Assembly: GCA_017546175.1 (NCBI GenBank)
Contig: JAFYXM010000010.1
Span: 186,001-250,000 of the forward strand
DNA from: Elusimicrobiaceae bacterium
GTDB taxonomy: Bacteria; Elusimicrobiota; Elusimicrobia; Elusimicrobiales; Elusimicrobiaceae
Length of the DNA: 64,000 nucleotides
Direction: 5' to 3'
In this document: in pieces, positions 23,882 through 41,413 of the stretch
Position numbering within the stretch: the first letter of the stretch is position 1
How the letters are laid out: every line of letters begins with the position of its first letter
Program-made: the position numbers and the translations under genes
The notes under the pieces: model-generated
Seen by the model: the letters and a program-made list of their open reading frames with translations, nothing else
What the model was told of the DNA's origin: nothing
Databases searched by the model: none

Positions 23882-24079
23882 TCATGGGCGGCATATTTCC
23901 CGAAAGCTAAGCAAAGCGCGTAAATTCTGTGTGTTTAGCTTTGCAATTGCCTCGTCTTGATAATCAAAGCGCACTTGGCAGACGGGGGCATTATTTTTTA
24001 TTTCCGCCGTGCAAGCGCTCAAGGCACTCATCGCGGCTAAGCCCGCTAAACTCTGCCAAAACCAAAACCGCTTTTTCAT
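23882..24079 (-). CDS. Small lipoprotein, outer-spanin-like (Rz1-type)
   Basis: 65 residues. Signal II with lipobox LSAC, leaving a ~43-residue lipoprotein. It starts inside the preceding gene in another reading frame (89 bp overlap), the arrangement of Rz/Rz1 spanin pairs that fuse inner and outer membranes at phage lysis. It is not proline-rich like many Rz1 proteins. GGAGCAGG upstream of ATG. Last gene of the phage cluster. Confidence 0.55.
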   Translation of the reverse strand: MKKRFWFWQSLAGLAAMSALSACTAEIKNNAPVCQVRFDYQDEAIAKLNTQNLRALLSFREICRP

Positions 24080-24194
24080 TTTCCTGCTCCCGTTTCATAA
24101 AATACTCTTTTTCTGCTGACGTCTTTCCGAACCGAAAACCAAAAAGGCCAATAGCTGCTGCCAAGCCTATCCCTATCAATATGCCGTACATCAT
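23991..24194 (-). CDS. Small membrane protein, inner-spanin-like
   Basis: 67 residues. One N-terminal membrane helix (YGILIGIGLAAAIGLFGF) followed by a charged helical tail (SAEKEYFMKREQENEKA). This is the shape of an Rz-type inner spanin, but much shorter than the usual ~150 residues. Its ATG overlaps the upstream stop (ATGATG) and its end overlaps the lipoprotein gene out of frame. Function is inferred from position only. Confidence 0.5.
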   Translation of the reverse strand: MMYGILIGIGLAAAIGLFGFRFGKTSAEKEYFMKREQENEKAVLVLAEFSGLSRDECLERLHGGNKK

Positions 24195-24370
24195 TTGCTA
24201 AAGGACCCGTCAGGGTTACACAAAGACAAGGCTGAAAGTACTTTGATGATTTTGCTCAAAGCATTGTCATCTTTTTGTGTAGGGGTCAGCTTCACCACCG
24301 CTGTAGCCAAGGCTACCGCTGCTCCAATTACCGCTAAAAGATCTTTCCCATTGTTTTGTATCCACTCCAT
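24191..24370 (-). CDS. Small phage membrane protein (holin-like candidate)
   Basis: 59 residues: MEWIQNNGKDLLAV, then one Ala-rich membrane helix (IGAAVALATAVVKL), then a polar helix ending in NPDGSFSK. AGGAGGAG stands directly upstream. A single short hydrophobic helix plus position between tail fibre and spanin-like genes suits a holin or accessory, but I do not recognise the family with certainty. Confidence 0.6.
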   Translation of the reverse strand: MEWIQNNGKDLLAVIGAAVALATAVVKLTPTQKDDNALSKIIKVLSALSLCNPDGSFSK

Positions 24371-24379
24371 AATCTCCTC

Positions 24380-24604
24380 CTAACTATTATTTCTAAATTG
24401 CATCAAAATAGATTTGATGGTTTTCACATCATCAATTACAATATCCATCTTTACGTCTTGGCGGCTGAGCTGCTGTTCATGCTGTTCCACCCGTGCTTCC
24501 AGTTTATCCACGCGCGGTGGCAAGCCGTACACGGTAAAAAACCAAAACAGTATCGCCATGGCTACACTTACTAAATATACCCAGCCTTGCAGTTTTTCTC
24601 TCAT
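24380..24604 (-). CDS. Small phage protein with N-terminal membrane helix and coiled coil
   Basis: 74 residues. Residues 8-28 are a hydrophobic helix (VYLVSVAMAILFWFFTVYGL); 30-70 form a heptad-like coiled coil (RVDKLEARVEQHEQQLSRQD). It resembles XhlA-type holin-associated proteins in layout, in mirrored order. Its ATG overlaps the stop of the upstream gene. A role in lysis is likely from position but not proven. Confidence 0.55.
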   Translation of the reverse strand: MREKLQGWVYLVSVAMAILFWFFTVYGLPPRVDKLEARVEQHEQQLSRQDVKMDIVIDDVKTIKSILMQFRNNS

Positions 24605-24900
24605 ATTCCCCCCTTACGCAATACTGCAGCCAAGGTTTCTATTTCGCGTGCCTTGACTTTGGTATATTCTGAGTACAAAGACCCTTCGGCTAAAATGCCT
24701 TCGCGTTGCCAACGGGTCATGGCGTAGTCTTGCTCAAGTTTAGCTACCTTTTCTTCCAAGGTGAGCTCTGCAGGAGCAGTATTGACCACAATGACATACC
24801 GCTCTGCTTGTTTTTCAATGTGTGCGTCATTTTTGTTACACCAAATGGCCGCCTGCGTATAGTTTTCTTTGGTTAAAATTTCTCCGATTTTAAACATCAT
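24601..24900 (-). CDS. Phage protein of unknown function next to tail fibre
   Basis: 99 residues, soluble, no recognised family. Begins FKIGEILTKENYTQAAIWCN and continues as a charged helical region (EEKVAKLEQDYAMTRWQREGIL). Proteins of this size directly downstream of a tail fibre are often fibre-assembly or host-specificity accessories. Both ends overlap neighbours by four bases, so it is firmly part of the cluster. Confidence 0.5.
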   Translation of the reverse strand: MMFKIGEILTKENYTQAAIWCNKNDAHIEKQAERYVIVVNTAPAELTLEEKVAKLEQDYAMTRWQREGILAEGSLYSEYTKVKAREIETLAAVLRKGGI

Positions 24901-26087
24901 TCAGCTCCTTGTCCGCAAACATAATAAACGGTATCTATATTCCCTGCGCCGCCATTGATATAAATTTGAGTAGTAGAGATGGCTCCGGCTCTGGGAGAAC
25001 CTTCTTGTACCGTCGGGCCAGATGTGCCTCTTTGCACACACAACACCATGTACTGGGTATTTTGCATAGGAAGCAATAAAGAAACTTTGCTGGAAGTGGT
25101 ATTTCTTCCGCCTTGTTCTACCCAACCGCTTTTATAAATGCGGTACCAGTTTCCGTTTTCATCTGAAAATTGATCCACCACAAAGTCCAAATTTTCCCTT
25201 GCATTCCCCAAATCACAATCGGCTTTATTGTTCAAATTTTCCTGCATAGACAGCAGTTCTTGAACGCTTGCTGCTGCAGATTCTTGACTGGCTTTGGCTG
25301 ATTGGGCACTTTGGGCTGCAGAGGTTTGCGCCGTTTGCAAATCTTGTGCCGTCCTCTCAATAGTAACTTCCGCTTTTTCTACTTGCTCTGCAGCATCTAA
25401 CGTTTCACGGGCGGCATTCTGTATTTCTGTATGCATTTGCAAAATGTATGTTTGCATCTGAGATACCTCTTGCCTTGCTTGCTGGGCAGCCGCACAAGCT
25501 GTTGAGGAGGTATCTGCATAGTGTTGTAAATTATTGACCGCTTGGGTGACCTGCTGGCTAGCTTGCACGGCCGTTTGAGCCGCCGAGCTGGCAACAGACA
25601 TGCTTTGCTGAGCCACACTATTGGCTTGCTCTACGTCTTGTTTGGCATGCTCCAAAGCCAGCAAATAGCTGCCTGCATCTGCTTGATTTTGGTTGCTTCC
25701 CAACGGAAATTTGACTGCCAACTCCAGCTCTGCCGCCAATTCTTGCGCAATCATCATCGCTTTATCATATCCCTGTTCCAAAATATGTGGGTCAAAAGTT
25801 TGCTGTGCTAAAAGCTTGGTTTCTTGCGCCAACGGAGTTTTACGCTGAAGTAATAAACGTTGTTGAGCCGGTAATGGTAATACATCTATATCAGACTGAG
25901 GATAAATGAAAATTTTATTTTCCTCATCAATTTCAAAATTACTCAAAAGCGCTGTTTTTACATCCTTTTCATCTATTAGAAAAGCCGAAATATTTTCTTT
26001 ATTTAAAAAAGGAAAAGGAATATCCCATTGAGTAGTAGAGCCGTTTCCCTGATAAATCACATAAGGTTGTGTATTTCTTACCGTCAT
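24897..26087 (-). CDS. Podovirus tail fibre protein (T7 gp17-type N-terminus)
   Basis: 396 residues. The N-terminus (YQGNGSTTQWDIPFPFLNKENISAFLID) is the virion-anchoring domain shared by T7-like fibres. Residues ~100-290 are an Ala/Gln/Glu-rich trimeric coiled coil (QQARQEVSQM, AQSAQSAKASQESA). The C-terminal ~90 residues form a compact beta tip (YRIYKSGWVEQGG, then NTQYMVLCVQRG and NGGAGNIDTVYYVCGQG), which would bind the host receptor. The fibre is short. There is no chaperone or intramolecular protease domain. Confidence 0.8.
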   Translation of the reverse strand: MTVRNTQPYVIYQGNGSTTQWDIPFPFLNKENISAFLIDEKDVKTALLSNFEIDEENKIFIYPQSDIDVLPLPAQQRLLLQRKTPLAQETKLLAQQTFDPHILEQGYDKAMMIAQELAAELELAVKFPLGSNQNQADAGSYLLALEHAKQDVEQANSVAQQSMSVASSAAQTAVQASQQVTQAVNNLQHYADTSSTACAAAQQARQEVSQMQTYILQMHTEIQNAARETLDAAEQVEKAEVTIERTAQDLQTAQTSAAQSAQSAKASQESAAASVQELLSMQENLNNKADCDLGNARENLDFVVDQFSDENGNWYRIYKSGWVEQGGRNTTSSKVSLLLPMQNTQYMVLCVQRGTSGPTVQEGSPRAGAISTTQIYINGGAGNIDTVYYVCGQGAE

Positions 26088-27490
26088 TTTTTACTGTCCT
26101 CCAATCTCAAAATTTTCTTTGCATAAATGGCAGCATTCAGTTGATCTTGCAAATCGGGACCTACCGTATAAACCATGTATTTTAGTGCCTGTTTTTGATT
26201 TTTCCCTTGCTTTTGAGATTTGCCCAAATCTTCTACGGCTTCCAACAAAAGCTCTTCTGCGGGGTCTTGTGTGGCGACCTGTTTTTGGCAAAATTTATAA
26301 GAAAGCTGCAGATATTCTTTTGCATTTATTTTTTCATCTTTAAAAGAGTTTTCAATTTCTTGGCGTTTTATATCTCCCAGCACGATTTTTTCGTACAGCT
26401 GATTAAATACGGACGGATTAGCTCTCCCAGAAACATCATATCTTGCCAAGCAAGCTTTTTGTAGCAAATCAAAATGAGCGGGAGTCAAATCTTCTTGATA
26501 GGACCCCGTCAAAACAGCCGAGCTTTCCTGCAAGAGTAAATCTTTATATATCTGCGCCTCACGGGAAAAACGCCGACGGGCCTGACGGGCCATTTCACTG
26601 CAAAGCACTTGAGTAAAAACTTCTTTTTCCTGCGACGGAATATCTAAATTTTTTACAAACTTTTCCGCTTTTTCTTTAGAAAAACTGCCGTCTTCATTTT
26701 GCAGTTGACAGGTTATTTCCTTCGGCAATTTTTGCATTTGCTTTTCTGCTTTTTTGTGGCTGATTTGACGGCGCAAGATATGCGCCTTCTCCTCTGGCAA
26801 TTCAGACAAAAAATGATGATACGTTTTCTCTGCTTCTTCTACTTCTGCAGCGGCTAGAGCCGAAGCAATATTTTTAGTTACTGCTTTTTGACGCAAATCT
26901 GCCCGATAGGCACTCCATTCTTCTCCTGAAATACCGAAATCAGCCATTTCTTTTTCAGCTGACAACAAATTGCTCTGCATATATTCTTCTAAGGCCGCCG
27001 CACCAAGAGTAGCAGAGGCCGTTTTCAGAAAAACCTGCTCGCCCTGTGATAAACGTTCCTGCCGGGCATATTTTTGTTTTTCTTGCTCCAGTTGCCCCGC
27101 ACAATGGCGAAGCACCACGTAATCTTGTCGCAGCAAGGCATCTTTTTCAAATGATTCGGCATTAGCGGCTACATATTGGTCCAACTCTTCTACGACAGAA
27201 GTATCTTTGTTTTCAGAAGAAAGCAGATTTTTCTGAAAAAAATTGAGCAGTTCTGCGCGGTTCTTTGAAGAAAAATTAGCTGCTGTTTCTTGGATATTTG
27301 ACAAGGCTTCCTTCCCTAAACGCTGCGCCTCTTCAAAAACTTTTACTCCCGCCTTCATATATTCCCCTGTTGCGGCCCAATCAAACCAATGCTGCTTACC
27401 GCTGGACTCTTTTAAAGGACGGGCCAACCTAACTGCTCGTGCATAGTTTACCTGATAGGGGATATTTCTTTTATAAACCGGTATCTTCAT
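26084..27490 (-). CDS. Phage internal virion/ejection protein candidate
   Basis: 468 residues from ATG 27490 (GAGGAAT upstream, 10 nt after the previous stop). Begins KIPVYKRNIPYQVNYARAVRLARP, then nearly all alpha-helical, Gln/Lys/Glu-rich. The C-terminal part (SVFNQLYEKIVLGDIKRQEIE, then INAKEYLQLSYKF) resembles the repeat pattern of gp15-type ejection proteins. No transglycosylase motif is visible. In T7 this slot encodes gp15/gp16, which form the DNA-ejection conduit. Assignment rests mostly on position and composition. Confidence 0.55.
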   Translation of the reverse strand: MKIPVYKRNIPYQVNYARAVRLARPLKESSGKQHWFDWAATGEYMKAGVKVFEEAQRLGKEALSNIQETAANFSSKNRAELLNFFQKNLLSSENKDTSVVEELDQYVAANAESFEKDALLRQDYVVLRHCAGQLEQEKQKYARQERLSQGEQVFLKTASATLGAAALEEYMQSNLLSAEKEMADFGISGEEWSAYRADLRQKAVTKNIASALAAAEVEEAEKTYHHFLSELPEEKAHILRRQISHKKAEKQMQKLPKEITCQLQNEDGSFSKEKAEKFVKNLDIPSQEKEVFTQVLCSEMARQARRRFSREAQIYKDLLLQESSAVLTGSYQEDLTPAHFDLLQKACLARYDVSGRANPSVFNQLYEKIVLGDIKRQEIENSFKDEKINAKEYLQLSYKFCQKQVATQDPAEELLLEAVEDLGKSQKQGKNQKQALKYMVYTVGPDLQDQLNAAIYAKKILRLEDSKK

Positions 27491-27500
27491 ATATTCCTCT

Positions 27501-27995
27501 TTATTTTCCAATCAAACTGCCCATTTTGGCCCATAAGTTCCAACGAGAGCGTTTGGCTGCCGTACGGTATTGCTGAGCTTCGGTGCGGTATTGCCATGCT
27601 TCTAAAGCAGCCTGTGTGTTGGTTTGTTCTAACGAACGAGCCATATTCTGTGCCAATGTTTCCTGATCCAGTAAAGCATTTAGACGGCTATTTTTTAGAA
27701 TCTTTTGTACCGTGGCAGATTGTAACCCCAGCCCGTTGGCAGCCAAAGATGTTTTTTGTGCACCTAGCAAACTGGAATAATTACGTGAAAGCTCACTATT
27801 TTGATATCCGGCATCTTCAAAAATATATTCGCTGTTTTTCTTGGCATTTTCCTCCGTCTGCTTGGCTTGATCTTCAGCTACTTTTGCCAAAGAACGGTAG
27901 TAGTCTTTTTCTTGGTCCGCACCCCCCAACAAAGAAGCGGCCGTAGATAAAACACTTCCCCCCTTAAATAAAACATTTCCTAAAGCTCCTCCCAT
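27501..27995 (-). CDS. Phage internal virion protein candidate (gp14-like slot)
   Basis: 164 residues. Gly/Ala-rich hydrophobic N-terminus (GGALGNVLFKGGSVLSTAASLL), then a helical Gln/Asn/Ala-rich body (EENAKKNSEYI, SLAANGLGLQSATVQKIL). Ejection proteins of this size with a membrane-active N-terminus follow gp13 in T7-like genomes. TAAGGAGG precedes the ATG. Family not certain. Confidence 0.55.
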   Translation of the reverse strand: MGGALGNVLFKGGSVLSTAASLLGGADQEKDYYRSLAKVAEDQAKQTEENAKKNSEYIFEDAGYQNSELSRNYSSLLGAQKTSLAANGLGLQSATVQKILKNSRLNALLDQETLAQNMARSLEQTNTQAALEAWQYRTEAQQYRTAAKRSRWNLWAKMGSLIGK

Positions 27996-28008
27996 TTTTT
28001 CCTCCTTA

Positions 28009-28533
28009 CTATTTTTTCAGATCTTTATTTGACCCGCCGAATTGATATAACTCAAAAGAAGTTTCCTTTCCTGCTAAATTAATTTTTTGGCTTAGTTTAC
28101 TCCCCCCCAAACGAACGATATAATGCCGTGCTTGCAAATATCTCTCATCACACAAAACATACAAATATGGATAAACAGATAAAAAATATCCCAGTACACT
28201 CTTGGATACTTTCCAAAACAGCTTGGGAATTTTTTTTACTTTCTTGCTGGTCCATGACCACAAACATCCGCGCCCTCCCAATAGACTCTCCGCTTCCACT
28301 CCGGCTACGGCACATACTTTGCCCTGATGCAAAAAAGCCAAAGAAACAGCCGATTTTTGGTAACATAGACTTAACACCTCTCTAACAGGCAAACGGTATG
28401 CCGCCCACATTTCCGCGCAATCTTGCGCTTGTAAAGACGGTGCAAGATCTGACAAATGTTCTTTACAAAGGGGTACCAAACTAATATCATTAGAAGAGGT
28501 AGTTTTTTGTAGAAAGGAGGGTAGTATGTCCAT
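28009..28533 (-). CDS. T7 gp13-like internal/assembly protein
   Basis: 174 residues from the ATG at 28533; the longer frame to 28647 has no start signal. It reads like the acetyltransferase-fold gp13 family: LVPLCKEHLSDLAPSLQAQDCAEMW, then a basic loop (WTSKKVKKIPKLFWK) and YLYVLCDERYLQARHYIVRLGG, the GNAT-like A-motif end. The place after tail tubular B and before gp14-like fits T7 order. There is no good Shine-Dalgarno; the region upstream is now occupied by the oppositely oriented gene at 28526, whose first codons overlap this start by 8 bp. Confidence 0.55.
   Translation of the reverse strand: MDILPSFLQKTTSSNDISLVPLCKEHLSDLAPSLQAQDCAEMWAAYRLPVREVLSLCYQKSAVSLAFLHQGKVCAVAGVEAESLLGGRGCLWSWTSKKVKKIPKLFWKVSKSVLGYFLSVYPYLYVLCDERYLQARHYIVRLGGSKLSQKINLAGKETSFELYQFGGSNKDLKK
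28462..28490 (+). promoter_or_regulatory. Promoter of the inserted plus-strand gene (moron)
   Basis: TTTACA (28462-28467), 17-nt spacer, TATCAT (28485-28490), lying inside the coding region of the opposite-strand gp13-like gene. An AAAGGAGGG ribosome site follows before the ATG at 28526. Confidence 0.6.
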
Positions 28534-29251
28534 ATTAGCTGTTTTTTTAATTCTTCTAGGATTGCTTTGCTTTGGAATCTTTTTTCTTATTTTTAAACTT
28601 ATTTGGATTTTGTTTAAAAAGAAACGCAATTTCTGGCCCTTGGTCATTTCGGGCGTGTTGAGTGGTATTGTCGTCTTAGCGGCAGGTATTTTTTCCTATG
28701 CAATGTACAGACAATTCGTTAAACCGTTTGACCCCATTGTCCAAACGGTCAAAACACAGACCACTTTGATTGACGGACACCGCCTCTATACTAACCCGCT
28801 GGGCTTTGCCGTTACCTTGCATGACGGCACGACATTAAGCAATTGGCTCACGGTAGATGATTGGAGTTTTTTAATAGGGGTGGACACCAATATGTTTGTG
28901 AACAAAAAAGACCCTAATCAACCTTTCTCTTTATATTTACTGGGGCATGAAGTAGATGACGAACCGTCCAACGCACACTATTTGATGAGCGAAATCTCAC
29001 AGGGTCTTGCTCAAAGCAATTCTTCCAAGGGACGTATTGAAATTGAGCAGGTAGTCCCTGTCAATGTAGGCACAGATGCTGAGGGAGAACTGATGAAATT
29101 GACCGCTTATCCCTATGATCAATCTACTCCCATCACCTTCTCTTTGGTCATTGCCACCAAGGGACATGACACTTATTTCTTGGCAGGGTTGGGCAATGCC
29201 GGCAACGATAAAATACTAGATACTGTCAGCAGTTTTGTCATTACCAAATAA
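28526..29251 (+). CDS. Double-pass membrane protein carried as a moron in the phage cluster
   Basis: 241 residues, family not recognised. Two membrane helices at residues 3-30 and 38-61, joined by a short basic loop (FKKKRN), are followed by a ~175-residue exported domain (LYTNPLGFAVTLHDG, LGHEVDDEPSNAHYLMSEISQG, ending DTVSSFVITK). It runs against all surrounding phage genes and has its own promoter, strong ribosome site (AAAGGAGGG) and terminator. That is the definition of a moron: a gene expressed independently of the lytic operon. Superinfection exclusion, receptor change or a host-fitness function are possible; none is shown. Confidence 0.75.
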   Translation: MSILAVFLILLGLLCFGIFFLIFKLIWILFKKKRNFWPLVISGVLSGIVVLAAGIFSYAMYRQFVKPFDPIVQTVKTQTTLIDGHRLYTNPLGFAVTLHDGTTLSNWLTVDDWSFLIGVDTNMFVNKKDPNQPFSLYLLGHEVDDEPSNAHYLMSEISQGLAQSNSSKGRIEIEQVVPVNVGTDAEGELMKLTAYPYDQSTPITFSLVIATKGHDTYFLAGLGNAGNDKILDTVSSFVITK

Positions 29252-29268
29252 CAAAGATGAAGATTTCT

Positions 29269-29299
29269 TAAACGCCCGATGAACAATCGGGCGTTTTTT
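29269..29299 (+). terminator. Terminator of the moron gene
   Basis: 10-bp stem AACGCCCGAT/ATCGGGCGTT with a short GAACA loop and seven T on the plus strand. On the minus strand only three T follow, so the phage transcript should read through. Confidence 0.8.
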
Positions 29300-31902
29300 T
29301 AACAAATTTGTGTAATTACTGCCAGCAGCGTAACCGGCAAAGGATCTTTCTGCACAAATTCTACCGTCGGGAAAACAGAATGTGAGGAAGAAATCACTTT
29401 GCAAAAATCTCGTGTTTGCAGGGGTGGAGCTTTTGCGTACACCTCTGCCGCCGGTGCATATAACTCCTCCGGTTTTCCCCCTTCAGCAGCGGCAGCTCCG
29501 CCGCGGCTATCTAACATTTTAAGCGTTATTTTTACCAAACGCCGGCGGCGATCTTGCATACTTCCTTCCGAGGTTTCAAAAGACACCGGCAAGGTACACA
29601 ACCCAGCTTGATAAGCCAGCCCCACATGTGCAGTACAAACAGCCTGCGGAAAAAGGACTTTTCCATCTTGAACCGATAAGTCCGTTAACGGATTTCCATC
29701 TGCCAAAGCAGATACCTTTCGCCCTTCCAAATGATCCAGACCACCCATTTCCGTAAAAGATTGGGTACTTTTTTTAGATACACTACAATCTAAAAAAATC
29801 TGATCTTCCACCTCTTTACTGGTCATGCGAGGCAACAACCGTTCAACAAAATATTTCCCATCGCGCCGTATCAAAAACCACATTTCGTCATATCCTTTGG
29901 AGGGAATACTGCAGGCACTGATAAATTGCCCTTGTGTTTCATGACGGGTCCAAGCAAACATATCTTCTTCAGACAAATAGGTCAAACACAACAAAGAGCC
30001 ATCTTTTAACACGCACCAAATCAAATTATCGGGTTCTTGCTGATAGACCAATGTTTTTATTTCTTTATTAAAAAACAGATGCTTCGCCCGAAGCGTCAAA
30101 TCTCTGCCAATATAGGAAGCACTGCTGTAATCATAAAAAAATTCCCGCACCACTCCGCCGCGTGCCTGTACATACAAGGTGCGACTGCCTACAACAATGG
30201 GAACGACCGAACTGGCACCGCGTTCCCCTTCTTGGGCAATTTCTATGTTATAAGGAGTCAAGGCACCGTTACAGCTTAAGCTCCATTCACTTCCGGCCGT
30301 AAAAATCAATAATTTGGGACCGACGGCTATAGAATTAATGGCATTTAACTTTTTACTGGAAAGATTGATACTAATAGCGTCGGAAGCTTCCAAATTGCGC
30401 AAATAACCAAAATTTTCATATTCCCCCGTTTTTGAAAACCAAATAGATTGCGGTTCTTTTTTAGTACCGGCAAAACCTAAACGGTCTTGATAGAAAAAAA
30501 TACAACTGGGGTAGCCGGCTTCTTCGTGAAAGGCGCCCTCGGCCCAATCGTAAGTCCACTCCTGCATACTGCCCGCCTGACGCTGCAACGATACTAACAT
30601 CTGACGAGGATTGACATAGCCTTCCAATTTTACAATTCCTTCCTGTACAAAGGCATCTGCCTGCAAAATATACCCCATTTCACCGGTAATCCCCAAGCAA
30701 CGCAAACGTAAAAAACGCATTTTGGCCGATATTTCCAAATTGCCAAGCGTATTGATATTCTCTTCATTTTGGGCTTTGCTAAAATGTTTTACTTTATTCC
30801 ACGTTTTTTGGTCGTCTGAGTATTCTAAAACTACTTCTCCATACCAGCTTCCCGTCGTACGCAAACGCCAATCGCCACTGGTTTTGATAATGCCGGACAC
30901 CCCTTCATAAGACAAAGTTCCCGTTTCATAAGAGCTTTCCATACGGTGATTTAAAGCAAACAGCCCCCCCACTTGAGCAGGACGAAACAAATCAAAATCT
31001 GCTTGCAAATAAAGCTTTTCTTCCCCGACACTAACTACTTCTCCGGCATTATACCCGCCGCTAAGCGTTTGGGTAACCACCAATTTTGGCTCTGACAAGA
31101 GCGACTCCCGGTATTCTATAACCAATTGAGAGCCATTATAATCTCCTCCCGTTTCCTGTGGTGATTCAATACGCAGCACCCCGCCCTGATTGTAGGCCAC
31201 ACATCCGGTAGAAGAAAATCTTTTGTTAAAGGAAAGCACCACATCCGCTACATCAAACCCATAATCAAGCGGGTCATAAAAACCTTGCCCACACCAATAA
31301 ACATGTACAATGCAGTTGGGATCATTAATCGGCAAAAAAGATAAAGTGGCTTTTACCCCGTCAGAAATCACAGTATCGCTTTGCAAAGATAAACGTACTT
31401 TCTTTTGCTCATCTGTGTTTGATAGCATAAAAGGACCGTCTTTGAGCTGCATGTCCTCCAGTACAAAAAATCCCTCTTCGGTACGCGTTAACTTTTGAGG
31501 ATAAAAATCTGTATGTACCAAAAAAAGAGTTTGGTCGTATTGGACATAATTAATCTTATCCAAATCTTTGGAGAGGTAAGGAGAAGCAATCTCATAAATT
31601 TGCCCTTCTTTCATAAGGGTCCCGGCCGAAGCATGCACGCGAATGTATTGCTCCCCCAGTTCCAACACATAAGACTCCTCTTCCGACAACACAAAGGGAA
31701 TTAAACGGCAGTTTTTATCTGCGTATTTGGCGGTATTGACATAGGCCGTTCCGGCACGGTTAGAGGCGCCGCCCTGCGGATGCACAAAAAAATTGCACGC
31801 TTTTTTAAGCCAAGAGCCATAAGTTTGCACATCTACGCGCGAGTATAAATGCGGGCTAACCTCTCCGCCTGAAAAATTGGGCTGTGTTGCATGATAGACC
31901 AT
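29299..31902 (-). CDS. Tail tubular protein B / nozzle protein (T7 gp12-like)
   Basis: 867 residues from the ATG at 31902 (GGGAGGAA upstream). The opening YHATQPNFSGGEVSPHLYSRVD and the NFFVHPQGGASNRAGTAYV segment are the signature of podovirus nozzle proteins. The rest is beta-rich (propeller-like), with PRQMLVSLQRQ, SCIFFYQDRLGFAGTKKEPQ, and WSLSCNGALTPYNIEIAQE. It forms the distal tail tube below the tail tubular A ring and may contact the receptor. The stop lies within the terminator of the oppositely oriented moron. Confidence 0.87.
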   Translation of the reverse strand: MVYHATQPNFSGGEVSPHLYSRVDVQTYGSWLKKACNFFVHPQGGASNRAGTAYVNTAKYADKNCRLIPFVLSEEESYVLELGEQYIRVHASAGTLMKEGQIYEIASPYLSKDLDKINYVQYDQTLFLVHTDFYPQKLTRTEEGFFVLEDMQLKDGPFMLSNTDEQKKVRLSLQSDTVISDGVKATLSFLPINDPNCIVHVYWCGQGFYDPLDYGFDVADVVLSFNKRFSSTGCVAYNQGGVLRIESPQETGGDYNGSQLVIEYRESLLSEPKLVVTQTLSGGYNAGEVVSVGEEKLYLQADFDLFRPAQVGGLFALNHRMESSYETGTLSYEGVSGIIKTSGDWRLRTTGSWYGEVVLEYSDDQKTWNKVKHFSKAQNEENINTLGNLEISAKMRFLRLRCLGITGEMGYILQADAFVQEGIVKLEGYVNPRQMLVSLQRQAGSMQEWTYDWAEGAFHEEAGYPSCIFFYQDRLGFAGTKKEPQSIWFSKTGEYENFGYLRNLEASDAISINLSSKKLNAINSIAVGPKLLIFTAGSEWSLSCNGALTPYNIEIAQEGERGASSVVPIVVGSRTLYVQARGGVVREFFYDYSSASYIGRDLTLRAKHLFFNKEIKTLVYQQEPDNLIWCVLKDGSLLCLTYLSEEDMFAWTRHETQGQFISACSIPSKGYDEMWFLIRRDGKYFVERLLPRMTSKEVEDQIFLDCSVSKKSTQSFTEMGGLDHLEGRKVSALADGNPLTDLSVQDGKVLFPQAVCTAHVGLAYQAGLCTLPVSFETSEGSMQDRRRRLVKITLKMLDSRGGAAAAEGGKPEELYAPAAEVYAKAPPLQTRDFCKVISSSHSVFPTVEFVQKDPLPVTLLAVITQIC

Positions 31903-31903
31903 A

Positions 31904-32491: not shown

Positions 32492-32510
32492 TTTTTACCT
32501 CAATTTTAAT

Positions 32511-32709
32511 TTATATTAAATTTTAATGTTTTTTTAATTTAGATGTAATATTAAAAATTAATACTATTTTTAAAAATACTTATATTTTAATTGTTTTTTG
32601 TTTTATACAAATTTGCTTATCAAATATAAAATTTATATACCAAAAGTAAGCCATTTTCAGATGTTATTTTAAAAATATTTATATTTTAATGTTTTTTTAA
32701 TTTTAAATT
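32511..32709. repeat. Imperfect AT-rich direct repeats
   Basis: Two long copies about 100 bp apart (32563-32600, 32664-32700) agree at most positions, each near an AGATGT(T/A)AT element (32541 and 32660). A third partial copy sits at 32511-32541. Confidence 0.5.
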
Positions 32710-32949
32710 ATTTTTATTATTTCAAAAAAATTTTAGAAAAAGGTTTATATATACTTTCTCCTGATATCTAAATTTTTTTAAAAAACAAATAAAAAAATAG
32801 ATGTTTTGCATTATAATTACACGTTTTTTAAGCCAAAATCGCCTATTTTACCCTTATTTTCCATTTTTCACATAACCCCCACAATCTCTTATACCCCAAA
32901 AGCCAAAACAAAGAGGATTTATGATTATAATTCCAAGAAAACAAGAATG

Positions 32950-32982
32950 GGGGCGCGGGAGACACCCAAAAAACCGCGCCCC
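32950..32982 (-). terminator. GC-rich hairpin downstream of capsid genes
   Basis: Perfect 9-bp stem GGGGCGCGG/CCGCGCCCC with a 15-nt loop. On the minus strand it is followed by the T-rich CATTCTTGTTTTC rather than a clean T-run, so it may be a weak terminator or an RNA processing/stability element. Confidence 0.5.
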
Positions 32983-32993
32983 TCGGGCTACGA

Positions 32994-33371
32994 TTACATA
33001 TCCGTAATACCTGTGACAAACAAAGACAGTTTCCCTGCCGTTGCCGTACCCGTTACGCTATAGTAACCGCGAATATATCTTTTAGCTCCCAAAGGCAAAA
33101 CCATTTTAAGCAAGGTTTTACCGCCTTTTAAATCTTCCGTTTCAAAAGAAGCTTCTGCCAAATCTTTCCAAACGCCAAAATCAGATTGATCCGAAGTTTG
33201 TAAAGAAATCTTCAAACCGTTAAGTCCGGCAAAATCTTCCACCGTTTGGGCCACCACCATGGCATGAGCGCAGCTATCGCCTGCGGCGGCTTGATCAATG
33301 ATATTTTCAGAAGCACAGGAAGAAGTAAGAGCCTGCTTATCCGAAAGCACTAAAGTAGCATCAATTAACAT
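32994..33371 (-). CDS. Bbp16-like capsid cement protein
   Basis: 125 residues. LIDATLVLSDKQALT, then ASENIIDQAAAGD, VEDFAGLNGLKISLQTSDQS, and LPLGAKRYIRGYYSVTGTATAGKLS match the Bbp16 family of Bordetella phage BPP-1, a beta-tulip decoration protein that stabilises the capsid. AAGGAG precedes the ATG. Lies directly after the major capsid gene, as in BPP-1. Confidence 0.82.
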   Translation of the reverse strand: MLIDATLVLSDKQALTSSCASENIIDQAAAGDSCAHAMVVAQTVEDFAGLNGLKISLQTSDQSDFGVWKDLAEASFETEDLKGGKTLLKMVLPLGAKRYIRGYYSVTGTATAGKLSLFVTGITDM

Positions 33372-33434: not shown

Positions 33435-34412
33435 CTAGAGAACTACATTTTCCGTATCTGTGATAGCATCACAAATATGTACCGGAATTTCGTTAAACGT
33501 CATTAACGGACGGCTGGTAATCTGATCCGGTGTATATTGTACATTGTGCTTATTGCTGGTCAATTTACGCAAAGCCGCTTTGACGGTGCGGTTCATATAC
33601 CAGAACGGTCTGCCCAAATTTAAACTTTGGATGCGTTCTTCAAGTTCGCACATTTTATCAATAAGATCTTCGGACACATTGGTAACGTCAATATTACAGA
33701 TACGGCCCGCATAACGCCAATCTTGCACCGCTAACCCCAATTTCCATTCAAAATACTCTTTATAAGCAGGATATTCATTACCTTCGGCATCGGTATGATT
33801 GACAAGACCGTGGTCCACCCGCTCAATACCTGCCTTGGAACCATGCGGGAAGAAGGTAAAAATCTTATCGCTATCCCACACTACCAAGTAAATGGAGGAG
33901 TTTTGCCCATCGGTTTCACCGCCTGCATCAATGACGTTACGGGCACTTTCTGCCTCCGTCAAGGTATTGTAACGGGCCGCTAAACCGGTAAAACGCTCCG
34001 GAGTTTGACCGGCATTTCCATAGATCAAATTGCTGGCCATGGTGTTGGACATACCGGCAATAATAGCCTTGCTTTGTCCGGTACGCACAGCCTGCAGGTT
34101 GCCCCCTTTTTCGGCTACCAATTTATCTACTACGGAGTAGGAGGATAAAGTGCCATAGCCCTCCACCACCACTTTGGTGGTCGCTTTGGCAGGCTCAATA
34201 CCTTGATAGGCTCTGCGCCAAGTCCCTTCCGGAATGCCGGTACGCACGGCATATTCATGTCCGGAATCTAAGTTACTTTCTACAACCAACGCATCACCGA
34301 TGATATCATTAGATTTGCTTAATACCTCTGCAATAGCCAGCTCTTGCCCGGACTCATCAAATTGTTTGGCATAGTCTAAGAGGTTGTAATATTTATCTGC
34401 AATAATAGCCAT
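33435..34412 (-). CDS. Major capsid protein (HK97-fold, BPP-1 type)
   Basis: 325 residues. Family segments: NDIIGDALVVESNLDSGHEYAVRTG, WRRAYQGIEPAKATTKVVVEG, then FTFFPHGSKAGIERVDHG, DWRYAGRICNIDVTN, and the C-terminal ITSRPLMTFNEIPVHICDAI. They are typical of major capsid proteins of BPP-1-like and related podoviruses, with an N-arm, E-loop and P-domain layout. No N-terminal delta-domain longer than ~30 residues, so a separate scaffold (next gene upstream) is expected. Complete and undisrupted. Confidence 0.88.
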   Translation of the reverse strand: MAIIADKYYNLLDYAKQFDESGQELAIAEVLSKSNDIIGDALVVESNLDSGHEYAVRTGIPEGTWRRAYQGIEPAKATTKVVVEGYGTLSSYSVVDKLVAEKGGNLQAVRTGQSKAIIAGMSNTMASNLIYGNAGQTPERFTGLAARYNTLTEAESARNVIDAGGETDGQNSSIYLVVWDSDKIFTFFPHGSKAGIERVDHGLVNHTDAEGNEYPAYKEYFEWKLGLAVQDWRYAGRICNIDVTNVSEDLIDKMCELEERIQSLNLGRPFWYMNRTVKAALRKLTSNKHNVQYTPDQITSRPLMTFNEIPVHICDAITDTENVVL

Positions 34413-34460
34413 AAATGAAATTTTCCTTTTAAGTTGGTCCTTACGGACAGAGAAAACCGT

Positions 34461-35033
34461 TTAATCGGCTTTCCCGTATAAAGCTTCTGCGAAAGTTTTA
34501 TCGGTCGTGCTGCGCGCCGCACCGCCGATAGAACGGTCTTCGCTGATGCTTTTGCTGATTTCATAAAAAGTCTTAATGATAACGGGGTGGCTTCCCAAGC
34601 CGGTGACATCTAAAAGCTCTCGCAGCTCTTCTCCGCCAAAACGCTGTGCAGCAGACAAAGCAGAGGTCAAATGCTTTTGATAGCAAGGCCCCAGCATTTC
34701 TTTGGTCTGCGCCGTCCATTTATCCAAGATTTGACCGCGTACTTCTTCGGATATTTTCCGTCCTTCCGTCAAAGTTTGCGCTTGCCAATCTAATAGTCTT
34801 TGCACCGTTTCGGCAGGAAGTTGCAGCTGGTTTGCCAATGTCTTAAAAGATTGCCAATTTTCTTCACACTCTTTTAATTCGCTCGGTAACTCTAGCTCTT
34901 CGTATCCGTCAGACTTTTCTACAGAAGACAGCTGATCGGGGGCGGATACATTTTCCGCTTCGCTCAGCCGGCCGGTTGCTTCGTCGGCCTGAAATTCATA
35001 GGTTTGGGGTTTAGTGTTTACTGTCTCAGACAT
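34461..35033 (-). CDS. Capsid scaffolding protein
   Basis: 190 residues from the ATG at 35033 (GAGGAGC upstream). Acidic, disordered first third, then helices (LANQLQLPAETVQRLLDWQ, ILDKWTAQTKEMLG) and the region LGSHPVIIKTFYEISKSISED, which is the common end of podovirus scaffold proteins. Position between portal and capsid genes fits. Overlaps the end of the Bbp19-like gene by 8 bp. No protease motif is seen. Confidence 0.75.
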   Translation of the reverse strand: MSETVNTKPQTYEFQADEATGRLSEAENVSAPDQLSSVEKSDGYEELELPSELKECEENWQSFKTLANQLQLPAETVQRLLDWQAQTLTEGRKISEEVRGQILDKWTAQTKEMLGPCYQKHLTSALSAAQRFGGEELRELLDVTGLGSHPVIIKTFYEISKSISEDRSIGGAARSTTDKTFAEALYGKAD

Positions 35034-35337
35034 AATTTTGCTCCTCGTTTTCTTCATCAATTTCATGTTGCAAAGAATTTACTTCCGACATATACTCCGC
35101 TCTCATCTGTGCCAGTATCAAAGCAGAGACTTGCAAAATTTGGCTTTGTAAAAAAAGAGCCATGCTTTTTTGCCCACAATGAAACGCCGTTGCATACGGA
35201 TCCGACGGCACAAAACCATGATTTTCCAATTGTCCCGCCTGCAATAACCGCCACAACACTCGCCGCCCTTGCGGCAATTTCAGCACGGCAGCCAAGTCAG
35301 ATAAGTTTCTCTTTTCAATAGATTTTTTCTTCATCAT
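35026..35337 (-). CDS. Bbp19-like phage protein
   Basis: 103 residues. DLAAVLKLPQGRRVLWRLLQAG and the following PYATAFHCGQKSMALFLQSQI match the small Bbp19 family (DLxxVLxxPxGRRxLWRLL...GxR), found next to capsid genes of BPP-1-like phages. Function not established. Acidic tail EIDEENEEQ. Confidence 0.72.
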   Translation of the reverse strand: MMKKKSIEKRNLSDLAAVLKLPQGRRVLWRLLQAGQLENHGFVPSDPYATAFHCGQKSMALFLQSQILQVSALILAQMRAEYMSEVNSLQHEIDEENEEQNYV

Positions 35338-35355
35338 TTCATTCCTGCTTTTGAC

Positions 35356-35420: not shown

Positions 35421-35447
35421 CCCGCGCCGCAGCATTATTTTTAGATT

Positions 35448-37013
35448 TTATTTTTGCTCACTAAGAGATAACTGCGCCATATTGACAGCTTGTCGCCGGG
35501 CTCTGATACGTTGTGTATCTTCTTCATCGCGCAAAAGTACCGGCGGCACTCCCAAAAGGTCCAAACCTTCTTCTACGGCAGCATCAAAATCAATTTTATC
35601 CAGCACTTCCGGATTTCCTTGCGCCAAACGTGAGATAAAATTAATTCCTTGTTCAATCCCATTCATGCCGCTTGCTTTTTGGGCCTGTGCAATCATAGAC
35701 ACGTATTGCACTTTTATATCCTCCCCCTCCACAATCGGCGGCGGCAGCGGAATCACTCCCCGACGGAACATAATATTAAACGTACGCTCAATGAGCGGGT
35801 CTAAAAGTTCATTTTTAAGCCGTTCCAATACCGGCCCCAAAACCAACATTTTTTCTTGATGTCTTTCTGCCACTTCCGTAGCGGTCATGTGAGAAAAATT
35901 CTGCGCACTGAGCATCAGGAAAACATCAGCAAAAAATTGCCCTTTAATGGTTTGTTTCACACGCTCTATGCTGCTTTCCAAAGCAGCCAAATCAATAGAC
36001 ACTTGATAGGCGGGTTTAATGGCGGCATCGGTGGTACCGTTGTAGCGGGTCAACCCTCCCGGAAGCAAATTCACTTCTCCTTGCACATTGGCAGAAACCA
36101 TCATGGGAGGATTGGTGTTTTTATCCAAAGCCACCAACTTGGCTTTTTGCATCTTTTGCAGCATTTTCACATCTCCCAAGGTTTTCCACCCCGGTCCACG
36201 GCCGTAAATATCAGAAGAATTTTTCACTTCCCAACGCGCAGCTATAACCGGAAACTCTTGATATCCGCCACGTTTGAGCAAATGTCCCTGAGGGGTAAAA
36301 TAAGCCGAAACATACGGCATATGTGCAAAATCTATTTTGCTCTCATCGGCCTGCGGGTTGGGCATAATTACGTGCATCACTTTAAACCAATCTGTTTTCT
36401 GTGTTTCGCTACGTCCGACCACGGAAAGCGGCAAATTTTCTTTACCAAATGCCTCAACCATTTGTTCTGCCGTCATAAAAAACTCACGTCCGAATGAATT
36501 TATATTGCCGCGGCTATCGGTGCCCAACACATATTCCCCCGCGGTAAAACTGCGGCAAGAAATTACTTTATCAGCATCTTCCTCCAGCAAAAAAGCCGCT
36601 GTACCAAAGACAGAAATTTCTTGATAAAAACTATGTAATGTGTTGTAAATGTTGGAGCGGCTAAAAACTTCTTCCATTCTGCGTTTTACTTCATATAGCC
36701 AGCGGCGTACACCGTTTTGCTTCATAATCTCTTCATCAGAAAGATTCAGCTCAAACCAACTGCGGCTAGGACTGGTAAGACCCGACATCATCCCCGCTGC
36801 CAACACCTCTACAGCCAACATAGGATCAGAGTCTATCAAAGCGCGGTGATCTATTTTTCGTCCGCTATTGGCAGAGTCTCCCTCAAAAAAACCGCGCGTA
36901 GGAGCGATAAATTTGGATAATTCTTTCCATGTGCCTTGCCATGTTTGACTTTGTGCTTTCATGACGTCATACTGCTTACGGAAAAGTTCCGTTTCTTGTG
37001 TTTTGTAACTCAT
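35448..37013 (-). CDS. Portal protein (podovirus head-tail connector)
   Basis: 521 residues, normal length. Head-tail connector family marks: WKELSKFIAPTRGFFEGD, VEVLAAGMMSGLTSPSRSWFEL, LYEVKRRMEEVFSRSNIYNTLHSFYQEISVFGTAA, FPVIAARWEVKNSSDIYGRGPG, and the C-terminal ERTFNIMFRRGVIPLPPP. It forms the dodecameric ring through which DNA enters. AAGGTG precedes the ATG. Promoter at 37360-37332 is 310 nt upstream, with the small plus-strand gene 37100-37279 lying antisense in the leader. Confidence 0.93.
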   Translation of the reverse strand: MSYKTQETELFRKQYDVMKAQSQTWQGTWKELSKFIAPTRGFFEGDSANSGRKIDHRALIDSDPMLAVEVLAAGMMSGLTSPSRSWFELNLSDEEIMKQNGVRRWLYEVKRRMEEVFSRSNIYNTLHSFYQEISVFGTAAFLLEEDADKVISCRSFTAGEYVLGTDSRGNINSFGREFFMTAEQMVEAFGKENLPLSVVGRSETQKTDWFKVMHVIMPNPQADESKIDFAHMPYVSAYFTPQGHLLKRGGYQEFPVIAARWEVKNSSDIYGRGPGWKTLGDVKMLQKMQKAKLVALDKNTNPPMMVSANVQGEVNLLPGGLTRYNGTTDAAIKPAYQVSIDLAALESSIERVKQTIKGQFFADVFLMLSAQNFSHMTATEVAERHQEKMLVLGPVLERLKNELLDPLIERTFNIMFRRGVIPLPPPIVEGEDIKVQYVSMIAQAQKASGMNGIEQGINFISRLAQGNPEVLDKIDFDAAVEEGLDLLGVPPVLLRDEEDTQRIRARRQAVNMAQLSLSEQK

Positions 37014-37099
37014 AAATCACCTTGACTAAAAAATATATACTGCCTGCAAGTAAAACAAAAATTTATTAGGATATAGAAAACAGCAAACAGGAGAATATT

Positions 37100-37279
37100 A
37101 TGTGGGGTTTACTAGGTATTTTGATTTTCGTACTGCTTTTATCTTTTCCGGGGTTTTACATCATTACGCGAAAAGTGTTTGCGCGTGGAAGCAAACGTAG
37201 TGCCGTTTGGCTTTCCGCAGCCGTTACCGCCCTATTGTTGATAGGACTACTGCTTATGATGTTTGGAGCAATTTTGTAA
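37100..37279 (+). CDS. 59-residue double-pass membrane protein, second plus-strand gene in phage cluster
   Basis: MWGLLGILIFVLLLSFPGF begins the first helix; a basic loop (TRKVFARGSKRS) and a second helix (LSAAVTALLLIGLLLMMFG) follow, ending AIL. An ACAGGAG ribosome site stands 7 nt before the ATG. It is oriented against the phage genes and sits between portal and terL. The helix-basic loop-helix plan is the same as the N-terminus of the moron at 28526. An ACCCG-AA-CGGGT palindrome follows the stop. No family recognised. Confidence 0.65.
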   Translation: MWGLLGILIFVLLLSFPGFYIITRKVFARGSKRSAVWLSAAVTALLLIGLLLMMFGAIL

Positions 37280-37331
37280 GTAATATTTTACCCGAACGGG
37301 TGTAGATTTACTAGAGAAACCTGATAAAACA

Positions 37332-37360
37332 AATATAGCATATTTTGTTAGTTTTGTCAA
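37332..37360 (-). promoter_or_regulatory. Promoter for the portal-capsid transcript
   Basis: Minus strand: TTGACA (37360-37355), 17-nt spacer, TATATT (37337-37332). An imperfect inverted repeat AACAAA-tatagcata-TTTTGTT (37329-37351) overlaps the -10 and spacer and could be an operator. Confidence 0.7.
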
Positions 37361-37436
37361 GTTTCTTGTTAGTATTTTTATATTTCTCGTCTAAGATTTT
37401 TTGAATTCTTATTTCTTTTTTGCGTAAAAGTTAGCT

Positions 37437-38762
37437 TTATAACACATTATATTCCGTTTTGGCAAAAGAAGATGTGCCGTTCTTTTTCATTACGGGCATA
37501 GCAAAAGTGAGTGCTAAGGCATCGGCCAAGTCGGGGCTTTTTCCGCTGCGTGCTTTTAAGTCCTCTTTGCTTTCCAGCTTCATTCTGCCGGCCGGGTCAA
37601 AACTGTAGCGAATTCCGCATAAATCTGCCCGTAAAGCAGGGTTTGAAGGCAAGGCTCCCCCGTCGCACAGCCATTGGGCCATCTCCCCCCACATTTCCGC
37701 CCGTTTATTGACATATTGACCCGTTTTAAGAGGAGCAGAGCCAAAATTTACTTCAAAAACTTCAAAACCCAACTGACGCAATCTATCTATAACCCCACCC
37801 CCACAACCGCCATCTATAAATACGGCATCCGGGTGAAAATTTTCCATCGCCAAAGCCACATGCGCCGCCAAGGTCATTTGATCCGTTTTACAAAAGACTT
37901 CCGGCTCAAAACCTTGAAGTCCCTGTCGTTTAAAAATTACGCTGCGATCCGTTCCAAAACGCGCCGGATCTACCCCCATTATTTTAGGTGCATAGCGAAC
38001 CTCGGCCGGGCTGTATTTGCGTTCTTGCGATTTTAACACATCACAAATACTGATCAACACATCCTCCGCATCGGCCGTAAAATCACACAAATATTCCTGA
38101 CGAAATAAATTCTCCGGTGTATGCTCTTTAATTTCTGCCAACTCTTGCACTGAAATAACGCCCGTTTGATCTGCAGGGAACACCCCACACCACCATTGAT
38201 GTGGGCGCGAAATCATGGCTTTTTGCGCCTGTTGATACAATTGATAAAACTGATTCTGCCCTTTCGGAGTACCTGTAAACAAAGTCCATCCTTGGCGAGA
38301 AAGTAACATCGGTCTTACAATTTCATCAAATACGTCGGGCTTAATTTGAGCATATTCGTCCAAAACCACCCCGTCGGCATAAGTACCGCGCAAGGCATCC
38401 GGATTATCAGCTCCCAACAGCCAAACTTTAGCTCCGTTAGGCAGAATGACACTTAACTCCGTTTCAGACAATTTAACACCGGGCAAAGGAGCTGTGTATC
38501 TACGCATATAATCCCATGCAATCAGCTTGGTTTGCTTTAAAAAAGGAGAGATATAAAAATAACGAGGGGACGGCTGCTGATTTATCAAAGCACTTTTCAG
38601 CAGATGATTGATAGCACATACCGTTTTACCCATTTGCCGATGCGTAACCAATACATTAAAACGATGTTTCTCCAGCTGCTTATGGATTTCCGTCTGAGGA
38701 TAGCGCGGTTTATACGGGATAACCACCGTTTTGTTATTTTCCGTTTTTTGTTTCGTCCCCAT
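37437..38762 (-). CDS. terL: Terminase large subunit
   Basis: 441 residues. ATPase domain: VTHRQMGKTVCAI (Walker A variant), ADGVVLDEYAQ (Walker B with catalytic Glu), LFTGTPKGQNQF (coupling motif). Nuclease domain: IMGVDPARFGTDRSVIF (first Asp), VFIDGGCGGGVIDRL (second), SPDLADALALTFA (third). All catalytic residues for ATP-driven packaging and DNA cleavage are present. Starts directly after the terS stop, with GGAGGAAT as ribosome site. Intact, which argues against simple decay of the element. Confidence 0.95.
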   Translation of the reverse strand: MGTKQKTENNKTVVIPYKPRYPQTEIHKQLEKHRFNVLVTHRQMGKTVCAINHLLKSALINQQPSPRYFYISPFLKQTKLIAWDYMRRYTAPLPGVKLSETELSVILPNGAKVWLLGADNPDALRGTYADGVVLDEYAQIKPDVFDEIVRPMLLSRQGWTLFTGTPKGQNQFYQLYQQAQKAMISRPHQWWCGVFPADQTGVISVQELAEIKEHTPENLFRQEYLCDFTADAEDVLISICDVLKSQERKYSPAEVRYAPKIMGVDPARFGTDRSVIFKRQGLQGFEPEVFCKTDQMTLAAHVALAMENFHPDAVFIDGGCGGGVIDRLRQLGFEVFEVNFGSAPLKTGQYVNKRAEMWGEMAQWLCDGGALPSNPALRADLCGIRYSFDPAGRMKLESKEDLKARSGKSPDLADALALTFAMPVMKKNGTSSFAKTEYNVL

Positions 38763-39212
38763 TTATTCCTCCCAATGCACCACCAGTGTGCTTGGCTGTT
38801 TTTTCCCTTCTTCTTTTCCGTCATGCCAACCCAATAAATTTTTAGCCGTAAATACGGCAAAAGAAGAGGAATAATTTCCGCGCAAGCTGTTTTGAATCAA
38901 GATATTTCCTTGCAAATCTCGGGCTTTTTGCACCGCTTGCGCAAACTCCGGATATTGCCGCTCCCAGTCGGTCAAAACCTCTTGCGTAACTCCTAATTTT
39001 CGTGCAAAAGCCGCAAAAGTAGGCAGCTCTGCTGCGGTTTCTATCAGCGCTACGGAGCCGTCTTTTTTCATTACTTCCGTAACGGTAAAAGCAGATATAT
39101 CAAAAAAAGCCAAAAGCTCCTGAACATACCGGCTTTGATAACTAAAAGAATTATTTTTAGAATTTCTTTTTTTTCTTGGAGAAGATACAGTTTGTTTGGT
39201 AAGAGAAGTCAT
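38763..39212 (-). CDS. terS: Terminase small subunit
   Basis: 149 residues from the ATG at 39212; a longer frame to 39299 would begin with TTG and a hydrophobic tail unlike the family. Basic N-terminus (SPRKKRNSKNN), HTH-like helices (LPTFAAFARKLGVTQEVLTDWERQYPEFAQ), then an oligomerisation helix and FTAKNLLGWHDGKEE, the usual small-terminase ending. No clear Shine-Dalgarno, so the start is less certain. First gene after the operator-promoter at 39304-39361. Confidence 0.85.
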   Translation of the reverse strand: MTSLTKQTVSSPRKKRNSKNNSFSYQSRYVQELLAFFDISAFTVTEVMKKDGSVALIETAAELPTFAAFARKLGVTQEVLTDWERQYPEFAQAVQKARDLQGNILIQNSLRGNYSSSFAVFTAKNLLGWHDGKEEGKKQPSTLVVHWEE

Positions 39213-39303
39213 ATTAAAAGCAGAAATAACAAGCAAGAAATACCCGATGAGTGCGGGCAAAAGAGGAGATAAAATAAATTTGGGGAAAAATAAGGACAAA
39301 AAA

Positions 39304-39361
39304 ATACAAACTTTAATCGTTTGTATATAATTATTATATCAAATTTTTTTAAATTTGTCAA
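39304..39361 (-). promoter_or_regulatory. Consensus promoter with operator-like palindrome heading the phage cluster
   Basis: Minus strand: TTGACA (39361-39356), 17-nt spacer, TATAAT (39338-39333), a perfect sigma-70 consensus. Around the start point lies a perfect 8-bp inverted repeat, ATACAAAC-tttaatc-GTTTGTAT (39304-39326). A repressor bound there would block initiation. Confidence 0.8.
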
Positions 39362-40972: not shown

Positions 40973-40989
40973 GACGAAGCCCCCTTTTT

Positions 40990-41403: not shown

Positions 41404-41413
41404 AGCTCCCCCC

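Follow-up and report, generated by a model that had tools for sequence, protein, structure and literature searches.

A conserved podovirus-derived gene cluster in Avelusimicrobium-type gut bacteria as a candidate gene transfer agent

The stretch of DNA analysed here, referred to as the window, comprises 64,000 nucleotides from an Elusimicrobiaceae bacterium (assembly GCA_017546175.1, contig JAFYXM010000010.1, positions 186,001 to 250,000), and positions 23,882 to 39,361 of it are occupied by a cluster of phage-type genes. The explanation that we favour, with a probability of about 0.77, is that this cluster encodes the structural part of a gene transfer agent (GTA). Its source would be a temperate podovirus of the BPP-1/epsilon15 type that was taken up a single time by the ancestor of Avelusimicrobium and has since been passed on vertically. 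A domesticated, GTA-like particle producer had been proposed in an original prediction made from the sequence alone, and this proposal is supported by the conservation of the locus, by the ratios of nonsynonymous to synonymous substitution rates (dN/dS), and by the match between the cluster tree and the host tree. Three of the six features that characterize GTAs (PMC9662315) are observed, which makes the cluster a strong candidate: (i) its particle proteins, namely terminase, portal, capsid, tail tubes, and ejection proteins, are of Caudoviricete origin; (ii) its genes are fully endogenised at several loci, with neighbours shared across the genus, terminase genes set apart from the portal in some species, and a regulator unlinked in G000; and (iii) it is inherited vertically and co-diversifies with the host, the exception being the tree of the large terminase subunit TerL. 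The integrase and attachment sites of temperate prophages are lacking, as is their sporadic, horizontally moving distribution.

The window is part of contig G000:C8 of the source genome (G-numbers denote genomes, C-numbers contigs, and L-numbers the loci or contigs compared, L022-L026 being from IMG/VR). G000 is a metagenome-assembled genome (MAG) of an Elusimicrobiaceae bacterium from an Avelusimicrobium-type gut genus, with 1.34 Mb in 10 contigs and 93% completeness. Its relatives are Elusimicrobiaceae MAGs, including Candidatus Avelusimicrobium, from the guts of roe deer, sheep, yak, reindeer, horse, and other animals. The comparison set contained 66 genomes of the genus, which are reduced (mostly 1.2-1.8 Mb) and belong to animal-gut inhabitants, and 24 genomes from five sister genera of the same family.

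Conservation and inheritance of the cluster

The original prediction had reasoned that a domesticated locus should be conserved at the same site under purifying selection, and that sporadic occurrence or flanking attachment (att) repeats would speak for a mobile element. The cluster is present as a single, intact, and syntenic copy in about 64 of the 66 genomes of the genus and is almost always uninterrupted. Matches to the portal and to the capsid were each found in 62 of the 66 genomes and matches to TerL in 59. None of the 24 genomes from the sister genera has a capsid match, and elsewhere in the phylum only four distant ones (29-34% identity) were observed; thus, the distribution is not sporadic. 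Apparent losses in G008 and G026 were rejected, as the cluster genes in these genomes sit on contigs ending inside the cluster; the TerL gene of G008 also reads as two overlapping frames. The losses that can be placed are at scattered tips of the host tree.

The genomic neighbourhood is conserved as well. The end of the cluster with lysis-type genes adjoins pilin and/or wzy genes across the genus, so that the cluster is kept beside the same neighbours. The opposite end, with the gene for the small terminase subunit TerS, adjoins, in many lineages, a regulator, c17 (a small gene), and frequently a transporter; in the G000 clade it adjoins a pilin-secretion operon. Type IV pilin-like genes are numerous and scattered through the genomes of the genus, and often lie beside the cluster (L205; window 39440-44343).

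The trees of eight cluster proteins and of 22 host proteins from the ribosomal-protein region were compared. The cluster tree follows the host tree: 20 of 27 splits are common, with one conflict at support of at least 0.9 and five at 0.7. The Mantel correlation of the cluster and host distances is r=0.89, a value reached by 0 of 9999 permutations (the largest being 0.36). Pairwise dN/dS ranges from 0 to 0.4 and is mostly below 0.2 (the capsid lies at 0-0.04, the portal at 0.04-0.10, and the scaffold reaches 0.4), far below 1, as expected under purifying selection. Because phages too show low dN/dS, these values count only jointly with the tree congruence and the fixed neighbourhood. Taken together, the comparisons strongly favour vertical inheritance of the cluster since the ancestor of the genus.

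In several species, terS and terL are split from the portal gene by up to ~12 kb with host genes between. The inserts are arrays of one to five divergent secreted ChaN/Tiki-like paralogues (c12; weak match to PF04187) or other genes. Arrays of c12 (e.g., L183:1606-8361, L204:10836-17623, and L211:11318-13631) occur in many species, but not in the G000 clade. The regulator is unlinked to the cluster in G000 and in the examined members of its clade. Therefore, essential parts of the system can live apart, as expected if it is owned by the host.

An alternative is that the cluster is what remains of a prophage that became defective recently, or belongs to a phage that still moves between species. 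All of its genes are of phage type, related prophages exist in the genus, and the cluster has no integrase. However, it is near-universal and single-copy, its tree agrees with that of the host, its frames are intact, its dN/dS values are well under 1, and its composition is host-like (GC content of 0.438 versus 0.441 in the flanking host genes; codon usage r=0.94). No flanking direct repeats of the att type were found in the window, and family searches gave no integrase match in the cluster or its close flanks there; the three tyrosine recombinases of G000 are all on contigs other than that of the cluster. The tRNA-Thr gene at 20773-20845 was considered as an attachment site and ruled out, since it is separated from the cluster by the conserved wzy and pilin genes, and a repeat pairing the two ends was not found. 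The genus-wide congruence largely refutes this alternative, and we consider it highly improbable.

Phage ancestry and related prophages

By portal, the closest isolated phages are epsilon15, BPP-1, and Caulobacter and Cobetia phages, with ~40% identity. The portal and the capsid of the cluster are each monophyletic with support of 0.94. The nearest relatives of both clades are the IMG/VR contigs L022-L026 and prophages in two genomes of the genus (G063:C9 and G048:C2); the search of IMG/VR gave only sister phages and no member of the cluster's own clade. These prophages and contigs have the same order of head genes as the cluster, and their capsids and portals are 53-73% identical to those of the cluster. 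Unlike the cluster, the prophages carry a tyrosine integrase (PF00589), a helix-turn-helix (HTH) gene, and many early genes, as well as a lysozyme in G063; their TerL is of another type (26-29% identity), and they occur in 2 of the 66 genomes.

This pair of genomes is a matched control for evolution at the host rate and at the virus rate. Between G063 and G048, the cluster capsids are 99.1% identical and the prophage capsids 59.0%; the respective values are 95.0% and 44.3% for Bbp19, and 88.4% and 68.7% for the portal. Thus, the prophages diverge far faster than the cluster.

Further prophages of the genus (L060, L061, and L065) carry TerL proteins related to that of the cluster (43-60% identity), which suggests terminase exchange between the GTA and phages. 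The related terminases, and the exchange that may lie behind them, would also fit a retained capsid module mainly serving other mobile elements, as a helper for satellites or integrase-bearing prophages. However, most cluster-bearing genomes show no second portal-bearing element, and the cluster owns a terminase, lysis-type genes, and a promoter; hence the chance that it is such a helper is very slight.

Organization of the cluster

Searches with Pfam and PHROG hidden Markov models revealed all parts of a podovirus particle module, which is encoded on the minus strand and extends from 39.3 kb (TerS) to 23.9 kb (small lysis-type genes). The family matches bear out the boundaries and the packaging and structural gene content that had been predicted. 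Features below are on the minus strand unless stated otherwise. A terminator-like hairpin (39383-39416; 15-pair stem followed by a T-rich tail) would insulate the cluster from the upstream host operon. At the head of the cluster lies the predicted promoter TTGACA-17-TATAAT (39333-39361) with an extended -10 element; as the original prediction had it, this is a consensus promoter, matching the sigma-70-type consensus at 12/12 positions, the best match in the region.

The packaging genes encode TerS (38763-39299; PF16677, phrog_3064; dN/dS 0.12-0.25), whose true start may be internal, and TerL (37437-38762; PF03237, phrog_2), in which the ATPase-type motif THRQ.GKT is kept. A second strong promoter is predicted before the portal and downstream genes (37332-37360; 11/12 consensus), with a CTAAC operator-like element in its spacer; it had not been noted previously. 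It is followed by the genes for the portal, or head-to-tail connector (35448-37013; PF12236, E 6e-163), a Bbp19-like protein (35026-35337; PF25181), a scaffold/protease-like protein (34461-35066; phrog_458), the major capsid protein of the GP7 family (33435-34412; PF20911, E 1e-113; 83-97% identity across the genus), and a Bbp16-like head decoration (cement) protein (32994-33371; PF21190). An AT-rich non-coding gap (32492-32993, GC 0.23) separates the latter from the tail genes. Its position is kept in the relatives checked: it is present in all 12 genomes checked (among L036-L069), with a length of 0.4-1.0 kb and GC of 0.22-0.35.

The tail and ejection genes encode tail tube protein A (T7 gp11-like, 31904-32491; phrog_394, E 2e-50), the nozzle or tail tube protein B (T7 gp12-like, 29299-31947; PF25675, phrog_376, E 4e-185), and two internal virion (ejection) proteins (28009-28533, phrog_308, and 27501-27995, phrog_418); the listed open reading frame of the former extends to 28647, its conserved start being internal. 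A 475-amino-acid protein (26084-27511), missing in one sub-clade and with no convincing Pfam family match, is a putative internal or ejection protein by position and conservation. The tail fibre (24897-26087; phrog_1640 and others) is the most variable gene of the cluster (23-50% identity), and the small protein that follows it (24601-24900) is kept in several relatives. The last three genes encode a small protein with a transmembrane segment and a coiled coil (24380-24604), of lysis type by position, as the endolysin slot of the relatives comes directly after it; a putative holin-like small hydrophobic protein (24191-24370; 55-76% identity in most relatives); and a small lipoprotein (23882-24079) with a lipobox-like N-terminus, presumably spanin-like by position. 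The cluster ends, as predicted, at the terminator of the host pilin gene, a strong symmetric hairpin (23844-23872; 13-pair stem, A run before, T run after) common to the cluster and the convergent pilin gene. An Rfam scan gave no match within the region.

The genes, described initially as intact and tightly overlapping, are indeed intact; their tightness is not uniform, with gaps of 0.4-0.8 kb at 32492-32993, 37014-37436, and ~28534-29298. Genes on the opposite strand, which the earlier description did not include, lie inside two of these gaps. The reported lack of integrase, replication gene, repressor, and endolysin holds inside the cluster; for repressor and endolysin it holds for this cluster alone, as an orthologous regulator is found elsewhere in G000 and the clusters of relatives carry an endolysin. 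In most relatives examined, the endolysin gene is located between the small lysis genes and encodes, depending on the lineage, either an M15 peptidase or a GH24 lysozyme.

The gene content also bears on the main rival explanation, a PBSX-like domesticated killing particle that lyses the cell and may enclose host DNA, delivering no useful DNA. Vertical conservation and purifying selection would look identical for such a particle, the tail fibre as the most divergent structural gene fits shifting targets, and the fold of the c10 protein described below is also found in immunity proteins such as Tsi3. However, terminase, portal, scaffold, capsid, and ejection proteins are constrained, the capsid most of all, and a killer needs none of them. 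The cluster particle would be short-tailed, unlike the known phage-derived killing particles, which to our knowledge have long tails. On balance, a killing particle is unlikely.

Regulation of the cluster

An HTH-domain regulator of ~210-235 amino acids is orthologous in 63 of the 66 genomes. In G000 its gene lies apart from the cluster (G000:C4:6928-7557), and in many lineages, including the sister clade of the G000 clade, it adjoins terS. The small gene c17 accompanies it in nearly all loci examined. The c17 protein (L195:6136-6480) is conserved, has ~90-125 amino acids, and is encoded beside the regulator whether linked or unlinked; it is a possible antirepressor or activator. The regulator profile matches LexA, and the structural model matches lambda CI and LexA, with a low template-modelling score over the full-length model because the linker is disordered. 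We infer from the protein family that the regulator is a CI/LexA-type, prophage-type repressor rather than an activator. The GDSM serine motif is retained in the regulators of G012, G028, G003, G027, and G018, and two members scanned match S24 (PF00717, E 3e-13 and 1e-12). In the G000 regulator, this motif is gone and S24 was undetected.

A CTAAC half-site common to the regulator and portal promoters was spotted by eye and then counted. In 89 loci with a total length of 1.47 Mb, there are 27 copies of the motif TTGACA-N1-6-CTAAC, all of them at the regulator or the portal promoter. Automatic classification covered 25 copies (15 at the divergent promoter of the regulator and 10 at the portal promoter); the remaining two were assigned by position, one to the portal promoter in G014 and the other to the regulator promoter in G054. 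Within the window the motif is unique (portal promoter). In G012 and in G027, it is found at the two promoters within a single genome; in G000, the regulator promoter has one mismatch (CTAGA). A dyad search for the regulator operator gave no clean palindrome. CcGTA is likewise held off by a repressor, RogA (PMC11150451).

Opposite-strand membrane proteins and competence

Two genes on the plus strand encode membrane proteins. The first, c9 (37100-37279), is located in the terL-portal gap, encodes a 59-amino-acid protein with two transmembrane segments, and is present in nearly every relative (dN/dS 0.07-0.20). The second, c10 (28526-29251), encodes a 241-amino-acid protein with two transmembrane segments and a PsbP/DcrB/EagR-like domain, and is present in 56 of the 66 genomes of the genus and in 0 of the 24 genomes from the sister genera (dN/dS 0.09-0.25). 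Thus, both genes are under purifying selection (0.07-0.25 together). The proteins c9, c10, and c17 have no convincing Pfam match. In a Foldseek search, the model of c10 (predicted local distance difference test, pLDDT, 91) matched PsbP, type VI secretion system chaperones (SciW), DcrB, and Tsi3. DcrB controls phage DNA injection in E. coli (Samsonov 2002, as cited in PMC7773334). We hypothesize that c10 may act in recipient entry, self-exclusion, or immunity. In G020, where the particle genes have been lost, c9 and c10 are kept, which hints at a role independent of particle production. A further possibility, which we regard as doubtful, is that c9 and c10, the latter with its DcrB/PsbP-like domain in the periplasm, act as recipient-side or self-exclusion proteins of the GTA: made by non-producing cells, they would let GTA DNA pass the inner membrane or keep it out, and the prophage repressor, once SOS-cleavable and now lacking its cleavage site, would rewire induction to host cues.

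Recipients of RcGTA need ComEC (PMC10883770). ComEC was found in 65 of the 66 genomes, only G020 being without a match. Its absence together with that of the cluster is only suggestive, as it concerns one event in one MAG of 93% completeness, and the presence of ComEC is simply permissive for DNA delivery.

Proposed function

If the cluster is a GTA locus, the following scenario can be proposed. The HTH/S24-type repressor would hold the portal promoter off. Once it is relieved, the cell would build heads, which the terminase would fill with host DNA. Holin-type proteins, together with the endolysin in most relatives examined, would lyse the cell, and the short-tailed particles would eject their DNA into siblings with competence machinery (ComEC). 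Since the S24 cleavage site of the repressor has been lost in most lineages, the SOS response probably no longer controls induction.

Several observations weigh against the GTA reading. Real losses are seen in G020, which keeps only c9 and c10, adjacent and between pilin genes (L205:8329-9795), and in G005, where TerL and an N-terminal portal stub remain near a contig end; G009, which is 98% complete, has the cluster and no terL or terS match. Thus, the cluster is dispensable. No M15 or GH24 endolysin was found in the whole G000 genome. With two taxon sets, monophyly of the cluster TerL was not recovered because the prophage TerLs of G016:C4 and G002:C2 attach near the base; this discordance suggests either terminase exchange or a root that the tree does not resolve. 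In many lineages the portal promoter has no CTAAC element, so that the link between the regulator and the portal is strong for the G000 clade and inferred elsewhere. Since a BPP-1-type head could hold ~40 kb, the 15.5 kb cluster alone would fit into one particle, although the scattering of the genes makes packaging of the full set unlikely. All genomes of the comparison set are apparently MAGs.

Comparison with known systems

Bordetella phage BPP-1 and Salmonella phage epsilon15 share with the cluster the capsid GP7, Bbp16, and Bbp19 families, in addition to the portal similarity. They are complete temperate phages of 40-42 kb, whereas the cluster keeps the particle module only. The living prophages in the same hosts form with the cluster a rare matched pair for studying the changes that turn a virus into a host organ. 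In addition, the cluster provides a regulatory switch that can be tested and a gene that may act on the recipient side.

RcGTA and CcGTA (Rhodogtaviriformidae) are similar to the cluster in their size of ~15 kb, the lack of replication and integration genes, and co-diversification with the host. However, they are siphovirus-like and have small heads, whereas the cluster is podovirus-derived (portal PF12236, nozzle, and T7-type tail tubes); its Pfam and PHROG matches are of podovirus types (head-to-tail connector, nozzle, tail tubular, and internal virion proteins) and not of the siphovirus-type gene set of RcGTA. BhGTA (VSH-1) of Brachyspira (Brachygtaviriformidae) resembles the cluster in its size of 16.3 kb, gut host, co-diversification within one genus, and the presence of an endolysin (PMC9662315). 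It belongs to another host phylum and, judged by the BPP-1/epsilon15-group portal and capsid families of the cluster alone, has another phage ancestor.

FpGTA from Faecalibacterium, also a gut bacterium, has podovirus-like proteins and genes at more than one locus (PMC12946183). Its terS-terL-portal-scaffold-capsid operon is kept in 12 of 12 Faecalibacterium genomes; FpGTA as a whole consists of 10.5 and 5.5 kb parts, and packaging of 8.4-8.9 kb was shown experimentally (PMC12946183). It comes from another phylum and is, as far as can be judged, independent of the cluster. No GTA of Elusimicrobiota was described in the literature searched, subscription journals and preprints being outside the search. 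The cluster is best read as a new GTA lineage that arose from a podovirus and was domesticated independently. The known GTA lineages are very few, and FpGTA (2026) is the only other one reported as podovirus-like; if the reading is correct, the cluster adds a separate case of domestication, in Elusimicrobiota, that has been kept throughout an entire genus of gut bacteria with reduced genomes.

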